Below, one piece after another: positions 3,532 to 53,245 of a DNA stretch of 64,000 nucleotides. Every line of letters begins with the position of its first letter. The first letter of the stretch is position 1. A model generated the notes under the pieces. The model was not told the origin of the DNA. It saw nothing but the letters and a program-made list of their open reading frames with translations, and searched no databases. The DNA lies in the NCBI GenBank assembly GCA_030524745.1, contig JAUNGC010000007.1, positions 62,001 through 126,000 of the forward strand. The letters are read 5' to 3'. The position numbers and the translations under genes are program-made. The stretch is from Eubacteriales bacterium (GTDB taxonomy: Bacteria; Bacillota; Clostridia; Lachnospirales; Lachnospiraceae).

Positions 3532-3918
3532 ATGTTCCATAATCCGAAAATATTGCCGTTTTACATGACATATCCGATGCCGTTGTTTTATCAGGAAGAG
3601 GATGCCGTGATGCGGGATCTGGAATATCTGCAGGAAATGTATCCGAAGGAAGCGCGCCGGTATCAGAAAATGGTGAGCCGCATACTGGACCGCTTCGATT
3701 ATGACGGCAGCATCATTTATGATGAATATCCCGACCGGCTGGCCGTATATAAAATGGCGCAGGATATCATGGCGGTCATTGCGCAGGAAGAAAAGGACGC
3801 GCAGCGCGAGATTCCGGCAGAAAAGATGCCTGAAATCTCCGAAATCGTGCAGATACTGGTGTGCCATGAGATTTATAAGCGCAGACAGGCGAAGGGGAAC
3901 GGTTTTCTGAAATTTTAG
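3532..3918 (+). CDS. small conserved-looking protein of unknown function
   Basis: This 128-residue soluble protein is rich in Tyr, Met and acidic residues. It has no signal peptide, membrane helix or cysteine cluster. Predicted helices run through most of it (DLEYLQEMYPKEARRYQKMV, IMAVIAQEEKDAQRE, EIVQILVCHEIYKRRQ), suggesting a compact helical fold. A ribosome binding site (AAAGGAAAG) precedes the ATG, and the gene follows the DUF4129-type gene by 22 nt, so it may share the operon. I do not recognise a named family. It resembles small hypothetical proteins seen in Lachnospiraceae, but no function can be assigned. Confidence 0.7.
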   Translation: MFHNPKILPFYMTYPMPLFYQEEDAVMRDLEYLQEMYPKEARRYQKMVSRILDRFDYDGSIIYDEYPDRLAVYKMAQDIMAVIAQEEKDAQREIPAEKMPEISEIVQILVCHEIYKRRQAKGNGFLKF

Positions 3919-7906: not shown

Positions 7907-8434
7907 TTACTCCAGTCCGAAGAGCTGATTTTTATATTTCTGCAGCGCAAAGAGCAGAATCAGACCGAAGATGCCGCAGGATATGATTTCTCCGGCAGTG
8001 ACTGTGATCACGGAAAACCATACGGGTACGATTCCGTAGGCATATTTTAATACGGGCGGAACCACGACGGCGTTTGCGAGGATGGGCGGCAGAGGAGACA
8101 GCCATTTGCAGACGGCAGCCTTTTTTCCTTCTCCACAGCGCCGGGCGGCTTTCCCGAGCGCCCATGTGCCGATCGCGCCGATAAGGGTCGCCAGAGGTCC
8201 GAAAATGATGTCGGGCAGTGCGGCGCCGGTCACGACGTTTGCAATCAGACAGCCGATGTATAAACCGGGTATGGCTGCGGGACTGAAAAAGGGAAGTACG
8301 GTGAGCGCTTCGGAAAAGCGGACCTGAATGTTGCCGCTGGCGATGCCGAGCGCATTGGCGATCATCGTGAGCACGACGTAGAGAGCGGCAATCATGGCCG
8401 CCTGGGTGAGGTACAGAACTTTTTTGTTTTTCAT
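7907..8434 (-). CDS. queT: QueT family queuosine-precursor ECF transporter substrate-binding protein
   Basis: This 175-residue hydrophobic protein has about five to six membrane helices and matches the QueT family throughout. Diagnostic segments are the N-terminal AAMIAALYVVLTMI, then NIQVRFSEALTVLPFF, IPGLYIGCLIANV and FGPLATLIGAIGTW. QueT is the S component of an ECF transporter that imports queuosine precursors such as preQ1. It would work with a shared EcfA/EcfT module encoded elsewhere. AAAGGAGA lies just upstream of the ATG. The gene has its own promoter at 8552-8579 and a leader of about 110 nt, as expected for riboswitch control. Family assignment is confident; the exact ligand is inferred. 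Confidence 0.92.
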   Translation of the reverse strand: MKNKKVLYLTQAAMIAALYVVLTMIANALGIASGNIQVRFSEALTVLPFFSPAAIPGLYIGCLIANVVTGAALPDIIFGPLATLIGAIGTWALGKAARRCGEGKKAAVCKWLSPLPPILANAVVVPPVLKYAYGIVPVWFSVITVTAGEIISCGIFGLILLFALQKYKNQLFGLE

Positions 8435-8579: not shown

Positions 8580-8596
8580 GAACAGGAAAAGGGAGT

Positions 8597-8990
8597 CCGT
8601 CCGCCGCCGGTCTTTACGCCGGGCAACCGGCTGTTCAGGCTGGGGCCTGCCGCTCTGTCCTGCCGGGTGTCCGGGGCGCACAGGTATTTTTGCCATTCCG
8701 ATATTCCAAACGGGAAATTCCGGCCAAAACGCCATCCCGTTCCAAGCTGTGAGTCAATGCGTAAACTCGCGCCAGGCAGCAGAAGCCGCGATATGCGCAG
8801 CTTCTGCTGCCTGGCCGCTCAGACAATACGCATTGACTCACAGGAACGTTCTGACGTTTGGGGGAATTTCACCGTCTGGAATATAAGTCATGGCTGCAAA
8901 TACCTGTGCGCCCCGGACACCCGGCAGGACAGGGCGGCAGGCCCCGGCCCGAACAGCCGGTCGCCCGGCGTAAAGACCGGCGGCGGACGG
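8597..8990 (+). repeat. long imperfect hairpin element, copy 1
   Basis: This 394-bp near-palindrome has outer arms that begin CCGTCCGCCGCC (8597) and end GGCGGCGGACGG (8990) and are complementary almost throughout. The conserved core runs from CACAGGTATTTTTGCCAT (8679-8696) to ATGGCTGCAAATACCTGTG (8890-8908). Near the tip, the stem is interrupted by an asymmetric loop, GTAAACTCGC (8761-8770) opposite GCTCAGACAATAC (8817-8829). The apical stem is GCCAGGCAGCAGAAGC and its complement. The same core blocks recur in the copies near 18.1 and 52.8 kb with unrelated stem sequences. Reading frames that cross it look spurious. Orientation is defined by the CACAGGT arm being on the left. Confidence 0.85.
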
Positions 8991-9057
8991 GTAAATTTAT
9001 CCTGTGGTTTTCCGCCCGCACGAATGATTTCTGTAGCGGTATATGATGTTGTATGGT

Positions 9058-9083: not shown

Positions 9084-9614
9084 ATGAAAAAGAGAATACT
9101 GACAGCGACGGTTTTTATCTGCCTGATTTTAGTTGGCTTGTCTGCCTGTGGAGATAAGGCGGGGCAGGAAGAGGTTTTTGATCTTAGCCGATTGCAGACG
9201 GAGGATGGCGCTTATCAATATAAGGATATTCCCTTTGGAAGTTCTTATGAGGAAGTCGCAAAGAAGATACCGCTGAAACTTGAAGAGATGACATCGGAAA
9301 GCGGTTCCGCCTGGTCTTTTTATTATTCTGTTGAACCGATAGCGTTTTACGGAGAAGAAGGAAAGTTTTCTCTTGAATTTACTGACGATAAGCTGGAAAC
9401 GGTAAAGGCGAGCGCAGAACTGTCCGGCGGCGAAGAGCAGTTTGAGGAACTTGCCGGAAAAATGGTGGAATGGTATGGGGAAGCGGAAGTGAACGTCAGT
9501 GAAACGGCGACGATCTATAGCTGGGAAAAGAACGGAGGCCATATCAATGCAATCTTGTTTGAAGACAGCGGAAAATATTATGGTATTTTTGGGGTCTTTT
9601 ACATGGAGGAGTGA
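9084..9614 (+). CDS. small secreted lipoprotein of unknown function
   Basis: This 176-residue protein has a lipoprotein signal peptide: basic MKKR, a hydrophobic stretch, and the lipobox LSAC with the lipidated Cys at residue 22. The mature part is acidic. It contains one segment, KDIPFGSSYEEVAKKIPLKL, that resembles the short helical repeats of small extracytoplasmic binding domains. No enzymatic motif is visible. A strong purine-rich site (AAAGGGGGAAAAGGG) precedes the ATG. The gene stands alone between hairpin copy 1 and a terminator. Surface-attached lipoprotein is a secure call; function is unknown. Confidence 0.8.
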   Translation: MKKRILTATVFICLILVGLSACGDKAGQEEVFDLSRLQTEDGAYQYKDIPFGSSYEEVAKKIPLKLEEMTSESGSAWSFYYSVEPIAFYGEEGKFSLEFTDDKLETVKASAELSGGEEQFEELAGKMVEWYGEAEVNVSETATIYSWEKNGGHINAILFEDSGKYYGIFGVFYMEE

Positions 9615-17949: not shown

Positions 17950-18272
17950 CGCCGCTGCCGTCCCCTTCTGCCCGCCGCCCAGCGGTTTCGCTTCCGGGGG
18001 CACAGGTATTTTTGCCATACCGATATCCAAAACGGGAAATTCTGCCCAAAACTCCTCTCCGCTCCAAACTGCCGTCCGGCACGCAAACTCGCCGTAGTCC
18101 ATGACTCTGTGCGAGCCATGGACTACGGCTCAAACAATGCGCGCCATACGGCAGGAACGGATCGAAGCTTTGGAGAATTTCTCCGTTTTGAATATAAGGT
18201 ATGGAAAAAATACCTGTGCCCCCGGAAGCGAAACCGCTGGGCGGCGGGCGAAAGGGAACGACAGCGGCGGCG
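17950..18272 (+). repeat. long imperfect hairpin element, copy 2
   Basis: This 323-bp near-palindrome is in the same orientation as the other copies. Outer arms start CGCCGCTGCCGT and end at GCGGCGGCG. The core begins CACAGGTATTTTTGCCAT (18001-18018) and ends ATGGAAAAAATACCTGTG (18201-18218). The tip loop is GCAAACTCG (18083-18091) opposite GCTCAAACAATGC (18128-18140). The apical stem CCGTAGTCCATG / CATGGACTACGG is unrelated to that of copy 1 but sits in the same place. It fills most of the spoVG to polyphosphate-polymerase gap. No gene is supported inside it. Confidence 0.85.
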
Positions 18273-19112: not shown

Positions 19113-19787
19113 ATGGGTTTTAGCGATATTTTCAAGAAGTCGTTTATCAATGGTTTTTATAATGTGGATATCGATCTGCCGACGATTTTGCTGAGTCTGG
19201 CGGTGGTGTGTCTGATCGCACTGTATATTTTCTTCGCGTACAGGCTTCTGACAAGAAGGACCTTTTATAATAAGAATTTCGGCATTGCGCTGGCGGCGCT
19301 GGCGATCATTACGGCGGCGATTATTCTGACGATCCAGTCGAGCATCGTGATTTCTCTGGGTATGGTCGGCGCCCTTTCCATCGTTCGTTTCCGTACGGCG
19401 ATCAAGGAGCCGATGGATCTGGTCTTTTTGTTCTGGGCGATCAGCGCGGGAATTATCTGCGGAGCGGGACTGTATTCCTTGGCGATCATTACCTCTTTGG
19501 TGATTACAATAGCGATTTTTGTACTGGATCTGATTCCGGTCACGAAAGCGCCCATGCTTCTGATTGTGAATACCCGTGATTTGGACGGTGAGGATGCGCT
19601 TCTTGCGGTTGTGGATAAATACAGCAAATATGCGAAAGTAAAGTCCCGGATCATGGCGGCGGGACAGCTTGACATGGTTATTGAGGTACGCGTCAGTAAG
19701 GAAAGCGAACTTGTGAAGGAAGTGAGCGCGCTGAAAGGAATGGACAGCGTTTCTCTGCTTTCTCATGATGGGGAAACGACGTATTAA
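19113..19787 (+). CDS. DUF4956 domain-containing membrane protein
   Basis: This 224-residue protein has about four membrane helices in residues 25-150. The conserved stretch ISLGMVGALSIVRFRTAIKE is the hallmark of DUF4956, followed by LVFLFWAISAGIICGAG. The cytoplasmic C-terminal part is an alpha/beta domain, about residues 155-224. DUF4956 genes commonly sit beside VTC-domain genes, as here with 24 bp between them. That suggests a membrane partner in polyphosphate or related metabolism. AGGAGATTATAAGG precedes the ATG. The function has not been shown. Confidence 0.88.
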   Translation: MGFSDIFKKSFINGFYNVDIDLPTILLSLAVVCLIALYIFFAYRLLTRRTFYNKNFGIALAALAIITAAIILTIQSSIVISLGMVGALSIVRFRTAIKEPMDLVFLFWAISAGIICGAGLYSLAIITSLVITIAIFVLDLIPVTKAPMLLIVNTRDLDGEDALLAVVDKYSKYAKVKSRIMAAGQLDMVIEVRVSKESELVKEVSALKGMDSVSLLSHDGETTY

Positions 19788-19804
19788 GAAGGCAGGTTTT
19801 GGGT

Positions 19805-20383
19805 GTGTATGTAATAGCAGGATTGGGAAATCCGAAAAAGGAATATGAAAATACCAGGCATAATATCGGTTTTGCCGTCATAGATATGTTAGCGGACAGG
19901 CACGGGATCCGCATGAATGAGGCGAAGCACAAGGGGCTGATCGGGAAAGGCTTTATCAACGGGGAAAAGGTGATTCTGGTGAAGCCGCTGACCTTCATGA
20001 ACCTGAGCGGGGAATGTATCCGGGAGGTTGTGGACTATTACAAGGTGGATGCGAAGGAAAATCTCATCGTGCTGCATGATGATATCAGTCTGGAGCCGGG
20101 CGTTGTGCGCATCCGCAAAAAGGGAAGCGCGGGCGGCCATAACGGGTTGAAAAATATTATTCTGCATCTGGGACACGATCAGTTTCAGCGGGTGAAGATC
20201 GGCGTGGGGGAGAAACCGGAAGGCTACGATCTTGCCGATTATGTGCTGGGGCATTTTTCAAAGCAGGAAAAAGAACTGATGAACCAGGTGGCAGAGGAAG
20301 TCTGCGATGCGGTGGAAGTGATGATGAAGGACGGTCCCGATGCGGCCATGAACCGGTTTAACAGCAAATCAAAGCGAGGTTAA
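19805..20383 (+). CDS. pth: peptidyl-tRNA hydrolase
   Basis: Pth frees tRNA from peptidyl-tRNA that drops off the ribosome. The 192-residue protein has the family start VIAGLGNPKKEYENTRHN with the catalytic His, LVKPLTFMNLSGE, and VLHDDISLEPGVVRIRKKGS with the conserved Asp. GTG at 19805 gives the family N-terminus (M-Y-V-I-A-G-L-G-N-P) with GGCAGG 8 nt upstream; a TTG at 19799 is the alternative. The gene ends 1 bp before mfd, so the two are coupled. The pth-mfd order is also found in Bacillus. Confidence 0.95.
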   Translation: MYVIAGLGNPKKEYENTRHNIGFAVIDMLADRHGIRMNEAKHKGLIGKGFINGEKVILVKPLTFMNLSGECIREVVDYYKVDAKENLIVLHDDISLEPGVVRIRKKGSAGGHNGLKNIILHLGHDQFQRVKIGVGEKPEGYDLADYVLGHFSKQEKELMNQVAEEVCDAVEVMMKDGPDAAMNRFNSKSKRG

Positions 20384-47522: not shown

Positions 47523-50153
47523 ATGTCTGTGAAAAATGGAAGAAAAGGAGCATACGGGCAGGTTGCCCTTGCCGCCCTGTGCGCGGCAGGGCTTTTTTCC
47601 GTTGTGTATCTGATGAAGGGTTTTTATCCTTTCGGGGACGGTTCGATCGTCATTACGGATCTGTATTCCCAGTACGTGCCGCTTTTGTACCGCTTTTATG
47701 ATGTGGTGGCAGGGGAGAAGAATCTGTTTCTGGATTTTTCAGTATCAGGCGGGGCGAATCTGTATGCGGATACGATCAACGAGGTGCTCAATCCTTTTAA
47801 CTATGTGCTGTTTTTGTTCGGCAGGGATATGCTTTACCAGGCGGTCAATGTGGTGCTGCTTTTGTATGCGGCGGCAGCGGCGGCGGCGGCGGATTTTTTT
47901 CTGTTGAAGATGTGGCCCGGACAGAAAAAATGGAATATGGTTCTGAGCCTGTGTTATGCGCTTTCCGGCTATCTGGTGTATAATTACCAGATCATCAAAT
48001 GGATGTATTTCCCGGTGCTGTTTCCGCTGTTTGCGCTGGCCCTTGTCCGCCTGTTTAAAGAAAAAAAAGGCGCGGCTTATGCAATCCTGCTGGGGTATCA
48101 GCTTGTTCTGAGCATTCAATTGGGGTTTATGACCCTGCTGTTTGTGCTGTTTGGCAGCGGGATTTATTTTTATACCTGTGTGAAAAAGGAGGACAGAACG
48201 GCGCTGATGTGCCGGCTGGGCCTGTATACCCTTGCGGGGGTGCTGCTTTCGGGCGTTGTGCTGGCGCCGAATGTGCTGATTCTTCTGGATTCCTCCCGGG
48301 CGGGGGAAAATCTGTCCTATTGGGGCGTGATGAAGCGCCACGGCCTGGACGATCTGTTTGAGCGGCTGTTTCAGATCGGGCATCCGGTTCTGCTTTCCCT
48401 TTTTTTGTGGCAGACGGTGAAACAAAAAAAGCGGCGCAGAGGGGAAACGGCGGGAAAGAGGCAGGCGGGACAGCGGATATCCTTCGGGAAGGAAGCGAAA
48501 TTTCTGATATTGCTGAACGGCTTTTTATGGCTGACCGTGCTGCTGGAACCGGCCAATCTGCTGTGGCACATGGGATCCTATGTGTGCTTTCCGGTGCGTT
48601 ACGCCTACATGGCGCTGCTGAGCGAAGTCTGTCTGATCAAACGGATGACTGTCAGCGATGAAGAAGGGAAAAGGGAAGAAAGCGCTCCGGGAAAATCGGG
48701 GAAGACGATCAAAAGCGGCCTTTTGTGTGTGGTTGCCGTTGTTTTGTGTCTGGGAGCCATGTTTATGACACTGCAAAAGGAGACGGAGATCGTACAGGCT
48801 TTTTCTTCTCTGGCGATCAGCAAGGTGCCGGGAACGCTCGTCCTGGTTTTAGCGGTTCTGGGCGTGCTTTTCCTTGCGGGACTGTGCGCTTTGGCGGCGG
48901 GAAAATACAGAAGGCAGTGCGTGTTTGTGGTAACGGCGTTGTGCAGCGTCTGTCTGAACCTGTTTTTCTTTTTCCCCAAAGATTATGAGGTGCGCCTGGA
49001 AAATGAGGAGATATACGGGATTCTGACGCAGCAGGCCAAAGAACCCGAAAAGGATATACTGGACCGGGAGAAGGAAGAGCCGGGATTTCCCTTAAACGCC
49101 GCCCTGGTGAACAAAAAAAGTTCGCTGACCGGATACTTTCCGACTGCCAGCCGGGATTTTCAGAACGTGATGGAAAGGCTGGGGTATCTGGTTCCCTGGG
49201 TTGCCACCCAGTCCGTGGGCGGAACGAAAATTTCCGACGATCTTTTGTCCATGGGGGCGCTTTTGGAGAGGACGGCGGAGGAACTGAAGCTTTGCGGCGA
49301 TACCGTGCTGGAATGTCAGGAAGAATTGTCTGTTTTGACTGCGGGGAAAAGCTATCTTACGCGCATTGCGGGAGACGAACTGAAGCAGGAAGCGGACGGA
49401 ACGATTCGCGTGCGTGCGGACGGACGAAAAACGATCTATCTGGATCCGGGAATGACGGCGGATTGTTTTGATATCCGGGTGAACGGAGAACTGCTGGAAG
49501 TGCCGGAAGCGGCGTCGGCATTCAGTTCTCACAGGATCATAGAGGTGGGAACTTTTGAAAACTGCGAAGTCGCAATTCTGGTGGCAGAGAACAGAAGAAT
49601 GGAAACGACGGCTTTTGCGGAACTGGGACTTTTGGACGCAGAGGGCTGGGAGCAGGCCGCAGAAGAGATGGGAGCGGCGGGACACGGCGCGCTGACGGAG
49701 GAAGAATTGTCCGTTGACCCGGCAAAGGGGACGATTGCGGTGAAGCTTTCCGAAGCTGTAGAGGGACAGACTCTGTTTTTGCCCTTTGCCGCCCTGAACG
49801 GATGGAAATGTGAATTGAACGGGAAAAATGTGGATATCGCTCCGGTTCTGGGCGGTTTTCTGGGGATAACAACAGAAAGCGGCGGCAACGAAATTGTGCT
49901 GCGTTTTACGCCGCCGGGGCTGACGGCCGGACTGTGGCTGTCCGTTTTGGGAGTAGCAGGACTGGCTGTGGGAACGGCGCTGCAATCAAAAAGCAGGCGG
50001 AGAGACTTCGGGAAACCGGAGAGGATACTGACGGCTGCGGTGGGAATCCTTTATCGGGTTTTACTCGCCGGAGGTCTGGCGGCGGTATACGTGATACCGG
50101 CAGCAGGGCTTTTTGGGTATCTGGCGGGGAAAGTGACGGGAATAGGTGGTTGA
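47523..50153 (+). CDS. YfhO family membrane protein
   Basis: This 876-residue protein matches the YfhO family: a dozen or more membrane helices, the loop GDGSIVITDLYSQYVPLLYR after the first helix, NPFNYVLFLFGRDM, and a beta-rich extracytoplasmic domain in residues about 480-760 (LTGYFPTASRDFQNVMERLG). YfhO-type proteins glycosylate lipoteichoic acid or other envelope polymers in Bacillus and Listeria. AGGGAGAA precedes the ATG. The stop overlaps the start of the GH20 gene. Together with the preceding GT-C gene it suggests an envelope glycan modification operon. Confidence 0.9.
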   Translation: MSVKNGRKGAYGQVALAALCAAGLFSVVYLMKGFYPFGDGSIVITDLYSQYVPLLYRFYDVVAGEKNLFLDFSVSGGANLYADTINEVLNPFNYVLFLFGRDMLYQAVNVVLLLYAAAAAAAADFFLLKMWPGQKKWNMVLSLCYALSGYLVYNYQIIKWMYFPVLFPLFALALVRLFKEKKGAAYAILLGYQLVLSIQLGFMTLLFVLFGSGIYFYTCVKKEDRTALMCRLGLYTLAGVLLSGVVLAPNVLILLDSSRAGENLSYWGVMKRHGLDDLFERLFQIGHPVLLSLFLWQTVKQKKRRRGETAGKRQAGQRISFGKEAKFLILLNGFLWLTVLLEPANLLWHMGSYVCFPVRYAYMALLSEVCLIKRMTVSDEEGKREESAPGKSGKTIKSGLLCVVAVVLCLGAMFMTLQKETEIVQAFSSLAISKVPGTLVLVLAVLGVLFLAGLCALAAGKYRRQCVFVVTALCSVCLNLFFFFPKDYEVRLENEEIYGILTQQAKEPEKDILDREKEEPGFPLNAALVNKKSSLTGYFPTASRDFQNVMERLGYLVPWVATQSVGGTKISDDLLSMGALLERTAEELKLCGDTVLECQEELSVLTAGKSYLTRIAGDELKQEADGTIRVRADGRKTIYLDPGMTADCFDIRVNGELLEVPEAASAFSSHRIIEVGTFENCEVAILVAENRRMETTAFAELGLLDAEGWEQAAEEMGAAGHGALTEEELSVDPAKGTIAVKLSEAVEGQTLFLPFAALNGWKCELNGKNVDIAPVLGGFLGITTESGGNEIVLRFTPPGLTAGLWLSVLGVAGLAVGTALQSKSRRRDFGKPERILTAAVGILYRVLLAGGLAAVYVIPAAGLFGYLAGKVTGIGG

Positions 50154-52597
50154 TGCTTTTGGAAGGGAAAAAGAAAGAGAAATTTCGGCATGCCGGACGC
50201 TTGTCCAAAAGAATCTTCCGGACGGCGGGCGTGCTGGCGGCGGCAGCGCTGATCGCCCGGATGGGAAAGGCCGGGGTGGAAGCGGACCGGGTGGAACAGG
50301 ATAGCTGGCATCTGCTTTGTGCAAAAACGGCGGAGGAAGGTATTGCCGTTGAAATTGCAGGAGAAAATCTGATGCTGCATTCCGGCGTGAAGGTAAAAGC
50401 GGACAGTCAGGAAGGGCAAAGCTTTTCCGCCGCGAAGGTACGGGACGGCATATGCGACGAAACCGATCTGCGCTGGTCTTCCGAAAATGACTGGGAAAAT
50501 AACGAACACTGGCTGGAGGTTTCTTTTCAGGAGACGGAGACGGTGGGATTTGTGCGCATTTACTGGGAAAGGAATAACGCCGCAGAGTATGCGCTGGAAT
50601 ATTCGCAGGATCAAAAAAGCTGGAATGTTGCGGCAAAATTCAATGCCCGTCCGGAAAGTACAGTGCAGGATATCCGGCTTGAGTATCCGGTGGAGGCGAA
50701 ATATCTGCGCCTTCATGTGACGGCTGTGGCCAAAGAGGAAGCGGATCTGAGCCTGTATTATCAGAACGTTTCCGTGCTGGAACTGGAAGTATATGAGGGA
50801 ATTGAAGATTCGTTTCTGATTGAAAAACCGGAAATTCCGGGCGGCAGCTTCCGGCAGCTTGTACCGGCAAAGAAAATGGAGGATGCGGCGGACGAACAGG
50901 CCAAAATCCGGGTGGAATATCCTGCCGTGCCGGAGGGATACCGCCTTACGTTTGTGGGGGCGGATTATGAAATGCTGGTGGATTCCTCCGGCCGGATTGC
51001 CGATACGATAGCGGATACGCAGGCGGAACTGGGATTCGCCCTGGAAAAGGACGGGGTGAGCCGGGAACTGCCCGGCATGACGGTGGAAATCCCGGCCGAA
51101 AGCGGGGCGGCAGGCGCGGAAAATGAGGATTTTGATTTTCCCGTGATGGAATGGAAATCCCGGGGAGGCGTCTGCAGTCTGGCCGAAACGTCCCGCGTTG
51201 TGTTCCGGAAAGCGGAGGAAGAAGAACTGGCTGCCGCGGCGGAGTTGTTTGCGCGGGAACTTTCCTCTTATCTGGGCCGGGAAGTGGAAGCGCTTGCGGT
51301 GGATGATTTTTCCGGAGAAGGAGATATTTGCCTCGCCCTTTTGGAAGAAGAGGGGGAAGCTTCGGCCGCCGCGTGGAATGACGGTCTGGGCGCGGAAGGC
51401 TATGAAATTTGGATAGGCGGCGCGGCGCAAAAAGACGAACATATGTCCGAAGGAGAGGAACCGGAAGAAATCAGGATCTGCGCCAATACCGTACAGGGCG
51501 TGCGGTGGGGCTGCGTCACCCTTCTCTCTTTGCTGGAAAAGACGCAGGGGGAATTGCCCGAAGGACAGATCAGGGACTATCCCCGCTACAGCGTCCGGGG
51601 CTTTGGCATCGACGTGGGGCGCAGGCCGGTTTCCCTGGAACTTCTTTACCGGATTGTGGAGGAAATGTCGGCGCAGAAGATGAACACGCTGCAGGTGCAT
51701 TTAAATGACAACCAGATTATTTCCCAGAGCGATTATGACGGCACGGTTTCCGGCGCGCGCAGCCTTTATGCGGGCTTTCGGCTGGAATCCGATCTGAAAA
51801 ATGAAGCCGGGGAAGGGATCACTTCTTCCGACCTTTTTTACACGAAGGAGGAATTTGCGCAGTTCATTGAGGACGCCGCCGCATACGGCGTGGAAGTGGT
51901 GCCGGAAATCGATACGCCCGCCCACAGTCTGGCGTTCACCAAAGTTTTTCCTGAATTGGGGCTTTCCCGGAATCCGGAGAGCGCGGACCAATTGGATCTT
52001 TCCAATCCGGAGGCGGTAGAACTGGGGAAAGCTTTGTGGAGCGAGTATTTGACGGGTGAGGACAGCGTTTTTGGGGGCTGTCAGGCCGTGCATATCGGCA
52101 TGGACGAATATTTCGGGGATGGAGAGGACTATATTTCTTATTTGCTGGCCATCGCGGATCATGTAGGAACGCTTGCGCCTGATAAAGAAATCCGCATTTG
52201 GGGCAGTCTTTCTCTGATGGATGCGGATCATGCAGAAGTGTCCACAAGCCTGCAGATGCACATTTGGGATACAAGCTGGGCAGACCCGCAGGATATGTAC
52301 GACGAGGGATTTTCCATTATCAATTCCTTAAGCAGCAGCCTTTATATCATACCGGGCGGCGGTTATGACTGGCTGGATCAGGATTTTCTGACCGGAAGCT
52401 GGCAACCGAATGTGTTTGAAACCCGGGAGCGCACATGGACGATTCCGGCCTATTCTCCGAAGATGCTGGGCGCCTGCTATATGATGTGGAACGACTGGTG
52501 GCAGGCAAACGGGGAAAGCCTGACGGAGGAGGATCTGTTTGCGCGCTTTGAAAGGCCGCTGGAGGTGATCGCGGGGAAGCTGTGGGGCGGAAAATGA
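50153..52597 (+). CDS. secreted GH20 beta-N-acetylhexosaminidase with discoidin domain
   Basis: This 814-residue protein has a signal-like N-terminus (RTAGVLAAAALIARM) and an F5/8 type C (discoidin) domain at about residues 70-215. The GH20 catalytic domain begins near 470. Catalytic-domain marks are YSVRGFGIDVGRRPVSLELL, KMNTLQVHLNDNQ, VVPEIDTPAHS and HIGMDEYF, where Asp651-Glu652 form the catalytic pair. The family usually has HIGGDE. The enzyme would remove terminal N-acetylhexosamine from glycans. The ATG overlaps the YfhO stop as TGATG. Hairpin copy 3 begins at its last codons. Confidence 0.85.
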   Translation: MLLEGKKKEKFRHAGRLSKRIFRTAGVLAAAALIARMGKAGVEADRVEQDSWHLLCAKTAEEGIAVEIAGENLMLHSGVKVKADSQEGQSFSAAKVRDGICDETDLRWSSENDWENNEHWLEVSFQETETVGFVRIYWERNNAAEYALEYSQDQKSWNVAAKFNARPESTVQDIRLEYPVEAKYLRLHVTAVAKEEADLSLYYQNVSVLELEVYEGIEDSFLIEKPEIPGGSFRQLVPAKKMEDAADEQAKIRVEYPAVPEGYRLTFVGADYEMLVDSSGRIADTIADTQAELGFALEKDGVSRELPGMTVEIPAESGAAGAENEDFDFPVMEWKSRGGVCSLAETSRVVFRKAEEEELAAAAELFARELSSYLGREVEALAVDDFSGEGDICLALLEEEGEASAAAWNDGLGAEGYEIWIGGAAQKDEHMSEGEEPEEIRICANTVQGVRWGCVTLLSLLEKTQGELPEGQIRDYPRYSVRGFGIDVGRRPVSLELLYRIVEEMSAQKMNTLQVHLNDNQIISQSDYDGTVSGARSLYAGFRLESDLKNEAGEGITSSDLFYTKEEFAQFIEDAAAYGVEVVPEIDTPAHSLAFTKVFPELGLSRNPESADQLDLSNPEAVELGKALWSEYLTGEDSVFGGCQAVHIGMDEYFGDGEDYISYLLAIADHVGTLAPDKEIRIWGSLSLMDADHAEVSTSLQMHIWDTSWADPQDMYDEGFSIINSLSSSLYIIPGGGYDWLDQDFLTGSWQPNVFETRERTWTIPAYSPKMLGACYMMWNDWWQANGESLTEEDLFARFERPLEVIAGKLWGGK

Positions 52598-53025
52598 TCC
52601 AAAAGGGGGATCTCTGCCCGCTGCCGGCTGTCCGTCTGCCGCCATGCGCGGAGCCGCTCTGCCCCCTCCCGCCTGCCGTCCCGGGCCGGGGCCCACAGGT
52701 ATTTTTGCCATTCCGATACACAAAACGGAAAATTCTGACCAAAGTATCATTCCGTTCCAAACTGTAATCCAATGCGTAAACTCGCGTCAAGTCAACGGCC
52801 TCGCAGCAAGCTGCGGGCCGTTGCTTTGACGCTCAGACAGTACGCATTGGATCACAGGAACGGCCTGACACTTTGGAGAATTTTACCGTTTTGCGTATAA
52901 GTCATGGCTGCAAATACCTGTGGGCCCCGGACCGGGACGGCAGGCGGGAGGGTGCAGAGCGGCTCCGCGTATGGCGGCAGACGGACAGCCGGCAGCGGGC
53001 AGAGACCTTCTTTTCGGATCGTTTT
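52591..53025 (+). repeat. long imperfect hairpin element, copy 3
   Basis: This 435-bp near-palindrome is the longest copy. Its left arm starts at the GH20 stop codon (AAATGATCC, near 52593) and its right arm ends GGATCGTTTT (53016-53025). The outer 100 bp of each arm match almost perfectly. The core runs from CACAGGTATTTTTGCCAT (52694-52711) to ATGGCTGCAAATACCTGTG (52904-52922). The tip loop is GTAAACTCGC (52776-52785) opposite GCTCAGACAGTAC (52831-52843). The apical stem GTCAAGTCAACGGCC and its near complement differ from those of the other copies. No gene is supported within it. Confidence 0.85.
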
Positions 53026-53245
53026 GGCCCACAGCCTGTAAACGTGGATTCTGCCGGGCGGAATGATCCGGCCTGTAGGTGCGTTTAGTTTCAATTTTAC
53101 GTGGAAGTGTCATTATTTTAGATGTGCTGGATTTCCTTTCCGGAGTATTGTATAAAGAAATTACAGGTCCGTAAATTGTTGCCGGGAAAGCCGGAACGTA
53201 TTTGGGGATATTTGATTGAGAAGAATGGATACAAGGAGAGGAAAG
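53026..53245 (+). other. leader region of the GH3 gene
   Basis: There is no gene here. TATAAA near 53150 could be a -10 box about 95 bp before the GH3 start, but the -35 is weak. AAGGAG (53233-53238) is the GH3 ribosome binding site. Confidence 0.35.

Follow-up and report, generated by a model that had tools for sequence, protein, structure and literature searches.

Results

Three long palindromes in the window

The DNA analysed (the window) is a stretch of 64,000 nucleotides, G000:C52:62001-126000, from a genome of 3.57 Mb in 63 contigs whose glgC has its closest records among uncultured Lachnospiraceae. It contains three near-palindromes of 320-457 bp with a common layout, designated family A and given here on the plus strand. 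Copy 1 (8597..8990, 394 bp, arms 95% paired) is a complete long hairpin situated between divergent genes: a QueT-family gene on the minus strand at its left (7907-8434, start at 8434) and an ORF of 176 aa on the plus strand at its right (9084-9614). It is composed of a left outer arm (8597..8680, 84 bp, 95% paired with the right arm), a conserved core (8681..8906) that reads CAGGTATTT ... AAATACCTG and contains asymmetric internal loops, and a right outer arm (8907..8990). Inside the core the left side of the tip loop carries the motif CGTAAACTCG (8760..8769), in which AACTC is invariant and the preceding A near-invariant among the 27 aligned family-A copies (see below). The right side carries GCTCAGACAATAC (8817..8829), which is conserved in the same 27 copies. 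The boundaries of the copies were set by extending the arms by alignment; the cores were delimited by extraction, in copy 1 together with alignment.

Copy 2 (17950..18269, 320 bp, arms 92.5% paired, conserved core 18003..18216) is located downstream of spoVG and a terminator-like hairpin, and upstream of a VTC-domain gene. Copy 3 (52579..53035, 457 bp, arms 91% paired, conserved core 52696..52920) extends with its left arm into the final codons of the ORF upstream (49934-52597), which matches glycosyl hydrolase family 20. The end of this gene thus occupies 52579-52597 inside the arm, and the opposite arm carries the gene end in inverted, diverged form.

Each of the three palindromes folds end to end into a single hairpin. 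Folding of 8582-9005, 17950-18272 and 52591-53025 gave energies of -348.7, -231.3 and -361.5 kcal/mol for copies 1, 2 and 3, compared with means of -166, -112 and -160 for shuffled sequences. With 100 shuffles each this corresponds to z-scores of -28.0, -19.9 and -35.2, and 0 of 100 shuffles folded as low.

A preliminary description of the window had reported three near-palindromes of one layout, with coordinates that are identical to ours for copy 1 and within 3 and 12 bases of ours for copies 2 and 3. The motifs quoted in it (CACAGGTATTTTTGCCAT on the left, GYAAACTCG facing GCTCARACARTRC at the tip and AATACCTGTG on the right) were found in the copies. It had regarded the frames encoding GKNTCAP as spurious; this peptide results when the left-arm motif is reverse-complemented and translated, and is therefore a reading of the element itself. 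Its authoring model had recognised no named family, and a search of the window and eight loci against Rfam at curated cut-offs likewise returned 0 matches. Sub-threshold hits to Rfam microRNAs reflect a long hairpin. The elements had no match in the plasmid and phage collections searched. The surroundings of the hits to two viral patterns showed no long palindrome or hairpin, so these were taken as chance, and a third viral pattern gave 0 matches. No recognised description of these Lachnospiraceae elements was met in the literature, most subscription papers and all preprints lying outside the scope of that search.

Family A is dispersed in one genome and has a conserved core

A BLAST search with copy 1 revealed family A at 30 places in the window genome, namely 29 distinct loci and a split match on contig C42. 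From the 29 loci 27 intact elements were extracted, L016 and L017 being half copies. The preliminary description had named one-off local duplication and a conserved protein as findings that would speak against it. An origin by local duplication is ruled out, as the copies are spread over many contigs.

The core of 189-246 bp aligned well over the 27 copies (alignment A1), with single-base insertions and deletions, whereas the outer arms (9-167 bp, 82-100% paired) vary in sequence from copy to copy; only the first ~45 bp of the arm are common to a few copies. In A1, 95.7% of the cells are paired, 55 of the 81 pairs show double-sided change, and 310 cells are doubly changed against a shuffled mean of 86, the structure scored having been derived from A1 itself. 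Near-invariant letters occupy the loops (TTTTTGCCATTCC facing AAGTCATGG, AAACTC facing CTCARACA, and a 3-nt bulge), and the family-A element is therefore structured and asymmetric. Together with the comparison to shuffled sequences, the 27-copy alignment bears out the earlier proposal of a large structured family with conserved internal loops and variable paired stems. Given the indels in the core and the free sequence of the arms, coding of a protein by the element is thought unlikely. Ninety-five open frames from 32 loci that clustered together were mostly the element's own (92 from the window genome).

The ends of the element are unrecognisable in most copies. Conserved terminal inverted repeats were not found across the 27 copies, and a terminal motif, GGATAAACG, present at a few, was rejected as a common terminus since it barely beats shuffled flanks overall (mean mismatches over both ends 9.0 versus 10.4). 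By eye no clear target duplication was seen in family A; one copy has a 6-bp T-rich repeat. At L002 and L027 a further repeat, AGCGAACG..GTGAGCTG..GAAGCG.., follows the elements downstream in tandem units, with a promoter-like site in between.

Outside the window genome the family is sparse. Of 60 relatives one, G004 of the same genus, gave a match, and it has its own diverged set at 20 places (21 matches, one place being hit twice). A covariance model of the inner family-A core (R2) detected each of the window copies 1-3 as well as 10 of 17 loci of G004; it matched none of 40 other sources, six family-B loci (see below) among them. The exact pattern TTTTYGCCATNCCRATAT occurs 21 times in the window genome and singly in each of 4 of 396 other genomes, and these four loci, also among the 40 sources, gave no R2 match.

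At two loci the site could be compared with relatives. The insert at the gpr-spoIIP locus of the window genome is absent from all 12 other genus members (560 nt examined), and the insert at phoU is absent from all 8 orthologues (620 nt examined, one with a run of N). Among 80 Lachnospiraceae loci compared at spoVG, no match extends to the element. The dispersion and the empty sites suggest that family A is mobile.

A second family of long hairpins with the same design

When regions were scanned for long palindromes, the window genome proved to contain a second family, family B, whose core is different (TTTTCCGGACACGCTYNCGCTCGG..GCGYAGCGGTAC..tip..GTACCGRCGC..ACGGTCC). The first copies seen in the window genome are L157:1463-1682, L160:3099-3309 and L148:9271-9466. 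The design, a conserved asymmetric core within long copy-specific arms, is common to A and B. That the two are one family was considered and rejected: R2 has no match at family-B loci, and the family-B covariance model (R1) finds nothing in the window.

By BLAST, family B is present in the window genome and in G002, G003 and G007 among 13 genus members. Sixty-six copies were extracted from these four, with arms of 39-134 bp and a median pairing of 93%. Beyond the genus, R1 gave matches in 142 of 397 sampled Lachnospiraceae genomes. Any long hairpin makes the E-values of such models look too good, a microRNA family reaching 6e-19, and for this reason a sequence pattern and reading of the loci were preferred. 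The sequence-only pattern was found in 126 of the 397 genomes, compared with 11 for the reversed pattern. The number of matches ranges from none to 299, 84, 67 and 59 in the richest genomes, and a genome with a single match may have it by chance. The family-B core or a close variant was recognised in 27 of the 30 best loci displayed; L302, L303 and L321 had been cut at the wrong place, and R1 recovered L303 and L321. In 83 distinct R1 hits both sides change in 29 of 32 pairs, with a covariation of 0.588 versus 0.18 after shuffling, and a mini hairpin of two pairs covaries as well. The covariance-model search of related genomes that had been proposed at the outset has thus located both families elsewhere. 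Family A would be an unnamed, gene-free long-hairpin element, and family B, of the same design, appears to be widespread in gut Lachnospiraceae.

In G028, the genome with 299 matches, copies often occur as inverted pairs ~400-600 bp apart (C4:6999/7564, C5:13345/13733 and C12:15877/16411). Several matches in G004 and G028 lie 40 bases or less from a contig start. Long hairpins of other sequence, none of them matched by R1 or R2, were also encountered: a 623-nt near-palindrome in another uncultured Lachnospiraceae (L040:17985-18607), perhaps a third family, with an R1 match elsewhere in the same region at 3745-3852; two adjacent hairpins in Butyrivibrio proteoclasticus P18 (L102:19543-19732 and 19776-19975); and one in Lachnoclostridium sp. 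An131 (L103:19521-19688).

Position relative to genes

None of the 66 family-B copies is inside or spans a called gene, according to our rough gene caller. The distance from the start of the arm to the stop codon has a median of 7 nt for 35 left genes and 11.5 nt for 34 right genes, and the most frequent location is between convergent genes (19 of the 56 copies with both neighbours called). No orientation bias was seen in family B. In family A, for which the counts likewise rest on rough gene calls, the left neighbour ends at the element in 18 of 27 copies, and many copies directly follow a stop codon.

This placement would be expected of terminators or insulators that benefit the host and are kept after genes by the cell. 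Such a role is nevertheless very unlikely. The orthologous genes in the relatives compared do without the element, and several copies come, as judged by eye, after a complete terminator-like hairpin. A T-run after the arms is inconsistent, being present at L002 and absent at most loci, and a terminator has no need of a conserved asymmetric core.

The inverted pairs of extragenic hairpins in G028 recall the arrangement of REPs, and Y1 genes are present in the carrier G007. Movement as REPIN-like elements by a Y1 (RAYT) transposase was rejected all the same, and we give it hardly any weight, because the transposase does not track the carriers. No Y1_Tnp match was obtained in the carriers G002, G003 and G004 (68, 95 and 58% complete) and the window genome has a broken Y1 fragment only, whereas the non-carriers G008 and G010 have matches. 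REPs are described as 20-40 bp (PMC3733652), and the elements here, of ~200-450 bp, are ten times that size and have copy-specific arms. The likeness lies in a high copy number of extragenic palindromes with an asymmetric feature that spread within a genome.

Pairing of the arms shows no overall preference for G-U

If the pairing were read in RNA it should tolerate G-U and not A-C. Mismatches in the arms were G-T:A-C 60:91 in family A, 97:74 in family B and 15:7 in 23 copies of G028, which sums to 172:172, whereas six tRNAs from the same DNA, a small control, gave 12:1. In the cores the ratio was 32:62 for family A and 73:29 for family B. The latter excess counts against a DNA reading; 38 of the 73 are in two columns. 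In several columns of the family-B core GC changes to AU with almost no G-U intermediates. Arm sequences change and yet remain paired, with no sign of the favouring of G-U that marks RNA helices. Taken together, the counts suggest that pairing is preserved irrespective of wobble, which is the behaviour expected of a process acting on DNA. From the lack of preference for G-U over A-C in the arms we therefore regard the elements as foldback DNA, palindromic by correction at the DNA level, rather than as an RNA gene. On the opposite strand the ratios of family A would be 91:60 (arms) and 62:32 (core), which leaves room for a minus-strand RNA in this family.

A large structured RNA, either regulatory or SINE-like and copied by a reverse transcriptase in trans, would account for the asymmetric internal loops with invariant letters, the covarying stems, the covarying mini hairpin of family B and the G-T excess in its core. 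It would also suit the orientation of family A: 21 of 23 copies are aligned with the G-rich, coding strand (four of the 27 copies being without a wider region), and in 23 of 26 the gene to the right runs in the direction of the element. In the wider regions strand skew and gene direction go together, so that effects of replication and of transcription could not be told apart. We consider such an RNA improbable in view of the arm ratios, the G-T deficit in the family-A core, the scarcity of G-U intermediates, the lack of an Rfam family and of orientation bias in family B, and the sequence-free arms of 39-134 bp, which seem longer than an RNA needs. The preliminary description had left the choice between RNA and DNA hairpin open. 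Its hairpin stands, and the ratios, the insertions and the target duplications of the sister family (see below) lean to DNA.

Changes in the arms were also followed between the sister species G003 and G007 in six orthologous pairs of family-B copies. Of 350 arm positions 304 are unchanged, 12 are double-changed and still paired, at 27 a mismatch is present in one of the species, and at 7 in both. The double changes come from three of the six pairs, with none in the other three, and are outnumbered by the one-sided changes (27 versus 12).

From what is known of E. coli, cells with SbcCD would not be expected to maintain long near-perfect palindromes stably. SbcD, for which alone we searched, is encoded by 12 of the 13 genus members including all five carriers, and survival of the palindromes is therefore not owed to its loss.

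Family B probably transposes or did so recently

Copies of family B in some genomes are alike over their whole length, and these similar copies define the unit. Seven copies of 254-273 bp in G087 are 85-98% alike including the arms and have terminal repeats in common (GTTACTTTTCATGGGG), and five copies in G365 share 272-350 bp. In G028, of which 30 loci were read, five copies have long-form ends (TAGGTGATTGCGAAA). Two of these five have a perfect direct repeat at their flanks, of 11 bp in one and 10 bp in the other, a third has a repeat of 7 of 8, and the other two have none. In G087 (8 copies) a perfect repeat of 8 bp is present at one copy and of 6 bp at one. Perfect target duplications of 11, 10 and 8 bp are thus found at L381, L393 and L338, 3 of the 13 family-B copies examined. 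With swapped flanks a score of 7 was reached in 0 of 20 and 0 of 56 controls. These duplications and their controls suggest that family B transposes or did recently.

Two sites in the sister species deserve mention. The orthologous copies L209:148-270 (G003) and L210:2831-2952 (G007) are opposite relative to their flanks, an in-place inversion. At one intergenic site, L258 in G003 and L213 in G007, two family-B copies have unrelated arms and tips, which may represent reinsertion or replacement.

The target duplications, the terminal inverted repeats of the well-preserved copies in G028 and G087 and the high and variable copy number would also fit a conventional MITE. The elements would then be internally deleted derivatives of an insertion sequence with a DDE transposase, whose terminal repeats reach the centre and whose conserved core is a leftover. 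However, in a MITE the ends should be the conserved part. Terminal inverted repeats were seen here within G087 and in a subset of the G028 copies, and the ends are common within a genome and differ between genomes, while the core is common to roughly 28 other genomes displayed. In most family-A copies the ends are unrecognisable, as noted above, and a search that was not systematic found no parent insertion sequence. We consider a MITE origin possible, if rather unlikely. ERIC, RUP and NEMIS are named bacterial MITEs. Elements of that kind resemble those described here in being intergenic, with inverted repeats, without an autonomous gene seen and, for some family-B copies, with target duplications; ours differ in being palindromic throughout, with a conserved centre and ends that vary between genomes.

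No mobilising enzyme was found, and no transposase family recurs near the copies. Among 1,166 open frames near copies there is no widespread partner gene, the widest real cluster being an ABC transporter in 4 genomes.

Discussion

The palindromes of the window are present at 30 places in their genome and absent from the orthologous loci compared. The element is probably mobile. The earlier interpretation of the palindromes is partly supported. We consider the best explanation, at a probability of roughly 0.55, to be that they are copies of a non-coding foldback element that is moved in trans and whose arms are corrected at the DNA level. The whole element would be the substrate of transposition. 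A putative enzyme acting in trans would recognise the folded asymmetric core, as a hairpin or cruciform in DNA, and move the element. After insertion the arms would drift and be re-paired at the DNA level during replication, by template switching or arm-to-arm conversion, and the copies would in this way become unique in sequence yet stay palindromic. The core loops would be held by selection for mobility and be kept only in lineages in which the element still moves. Selection would keep copies out of genes, so that they persist where they are least harmful, after a stop codon and ahead of the following promoter. As some arms overlap last codons (window copy 3), one might guess that arms lengthen through copying of the host sequence next to them.

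Several observations go against this explanation. Among them are the failure to find a mobilising enzyme, the ends that differ between genomes, the G-T excess in the family-B core and the low number of double changes in the orthologous pairs. Target duplications are seen only in family B, at 2 of 5 copies in G028 and 1 of 8 in G087, and are of unequal length; and a neutral foldback element would not explain why 21 of 23 family-A copies are oriented with the coding strand.

Template switching and arm-to-arm conversion during replication are known for quasipalindromes of E. coli. A template switch in replication at quasipalindromes is described as raising the complementarity of the arms (PMC7202029), and template switching has been proposed for the concerted evolution of inverted-repeat arms (PMC6649704). 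That process is a mechanism of mutation and does not define a family of elements; in the present case its target would be mobile elements that conserve their core. The palindromic elements of Rickettsia are likewise structured palindromes dispersed in a bacterial genome. They are reported to insert in coding sequence and to lose the identity of their repeats over time (PMC6649704), in contrast to the absence of family B from called genes and the arms that stay paired.

More tentatively, these elements could be mobile DNA that is addressed by its shape. The enzyme would read a folded hairpin through its conserved asymmetric core of junction or loop, the arms would need only to pair and could have any sequence, and correction coupled to replication would keep them near-perfect. 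Each copy would then become a unique long palindrome that persists despite SbcD.

The genomes studied here carry tens to hundreds of long near-perfect palindromes while encoding SbcD. If the foldback explanation is true, a mobile element has been overlooked in gut Lachnospiraceae, one at which some draft-genome contigs end. The elements would provide a natural record of bacterial arm-to-arm correction, and the question of this correction is directly testable, since compensated changes are already visible between sister species. They would also hint at an enzyme, so far unnamed, that recognises folded DNA.
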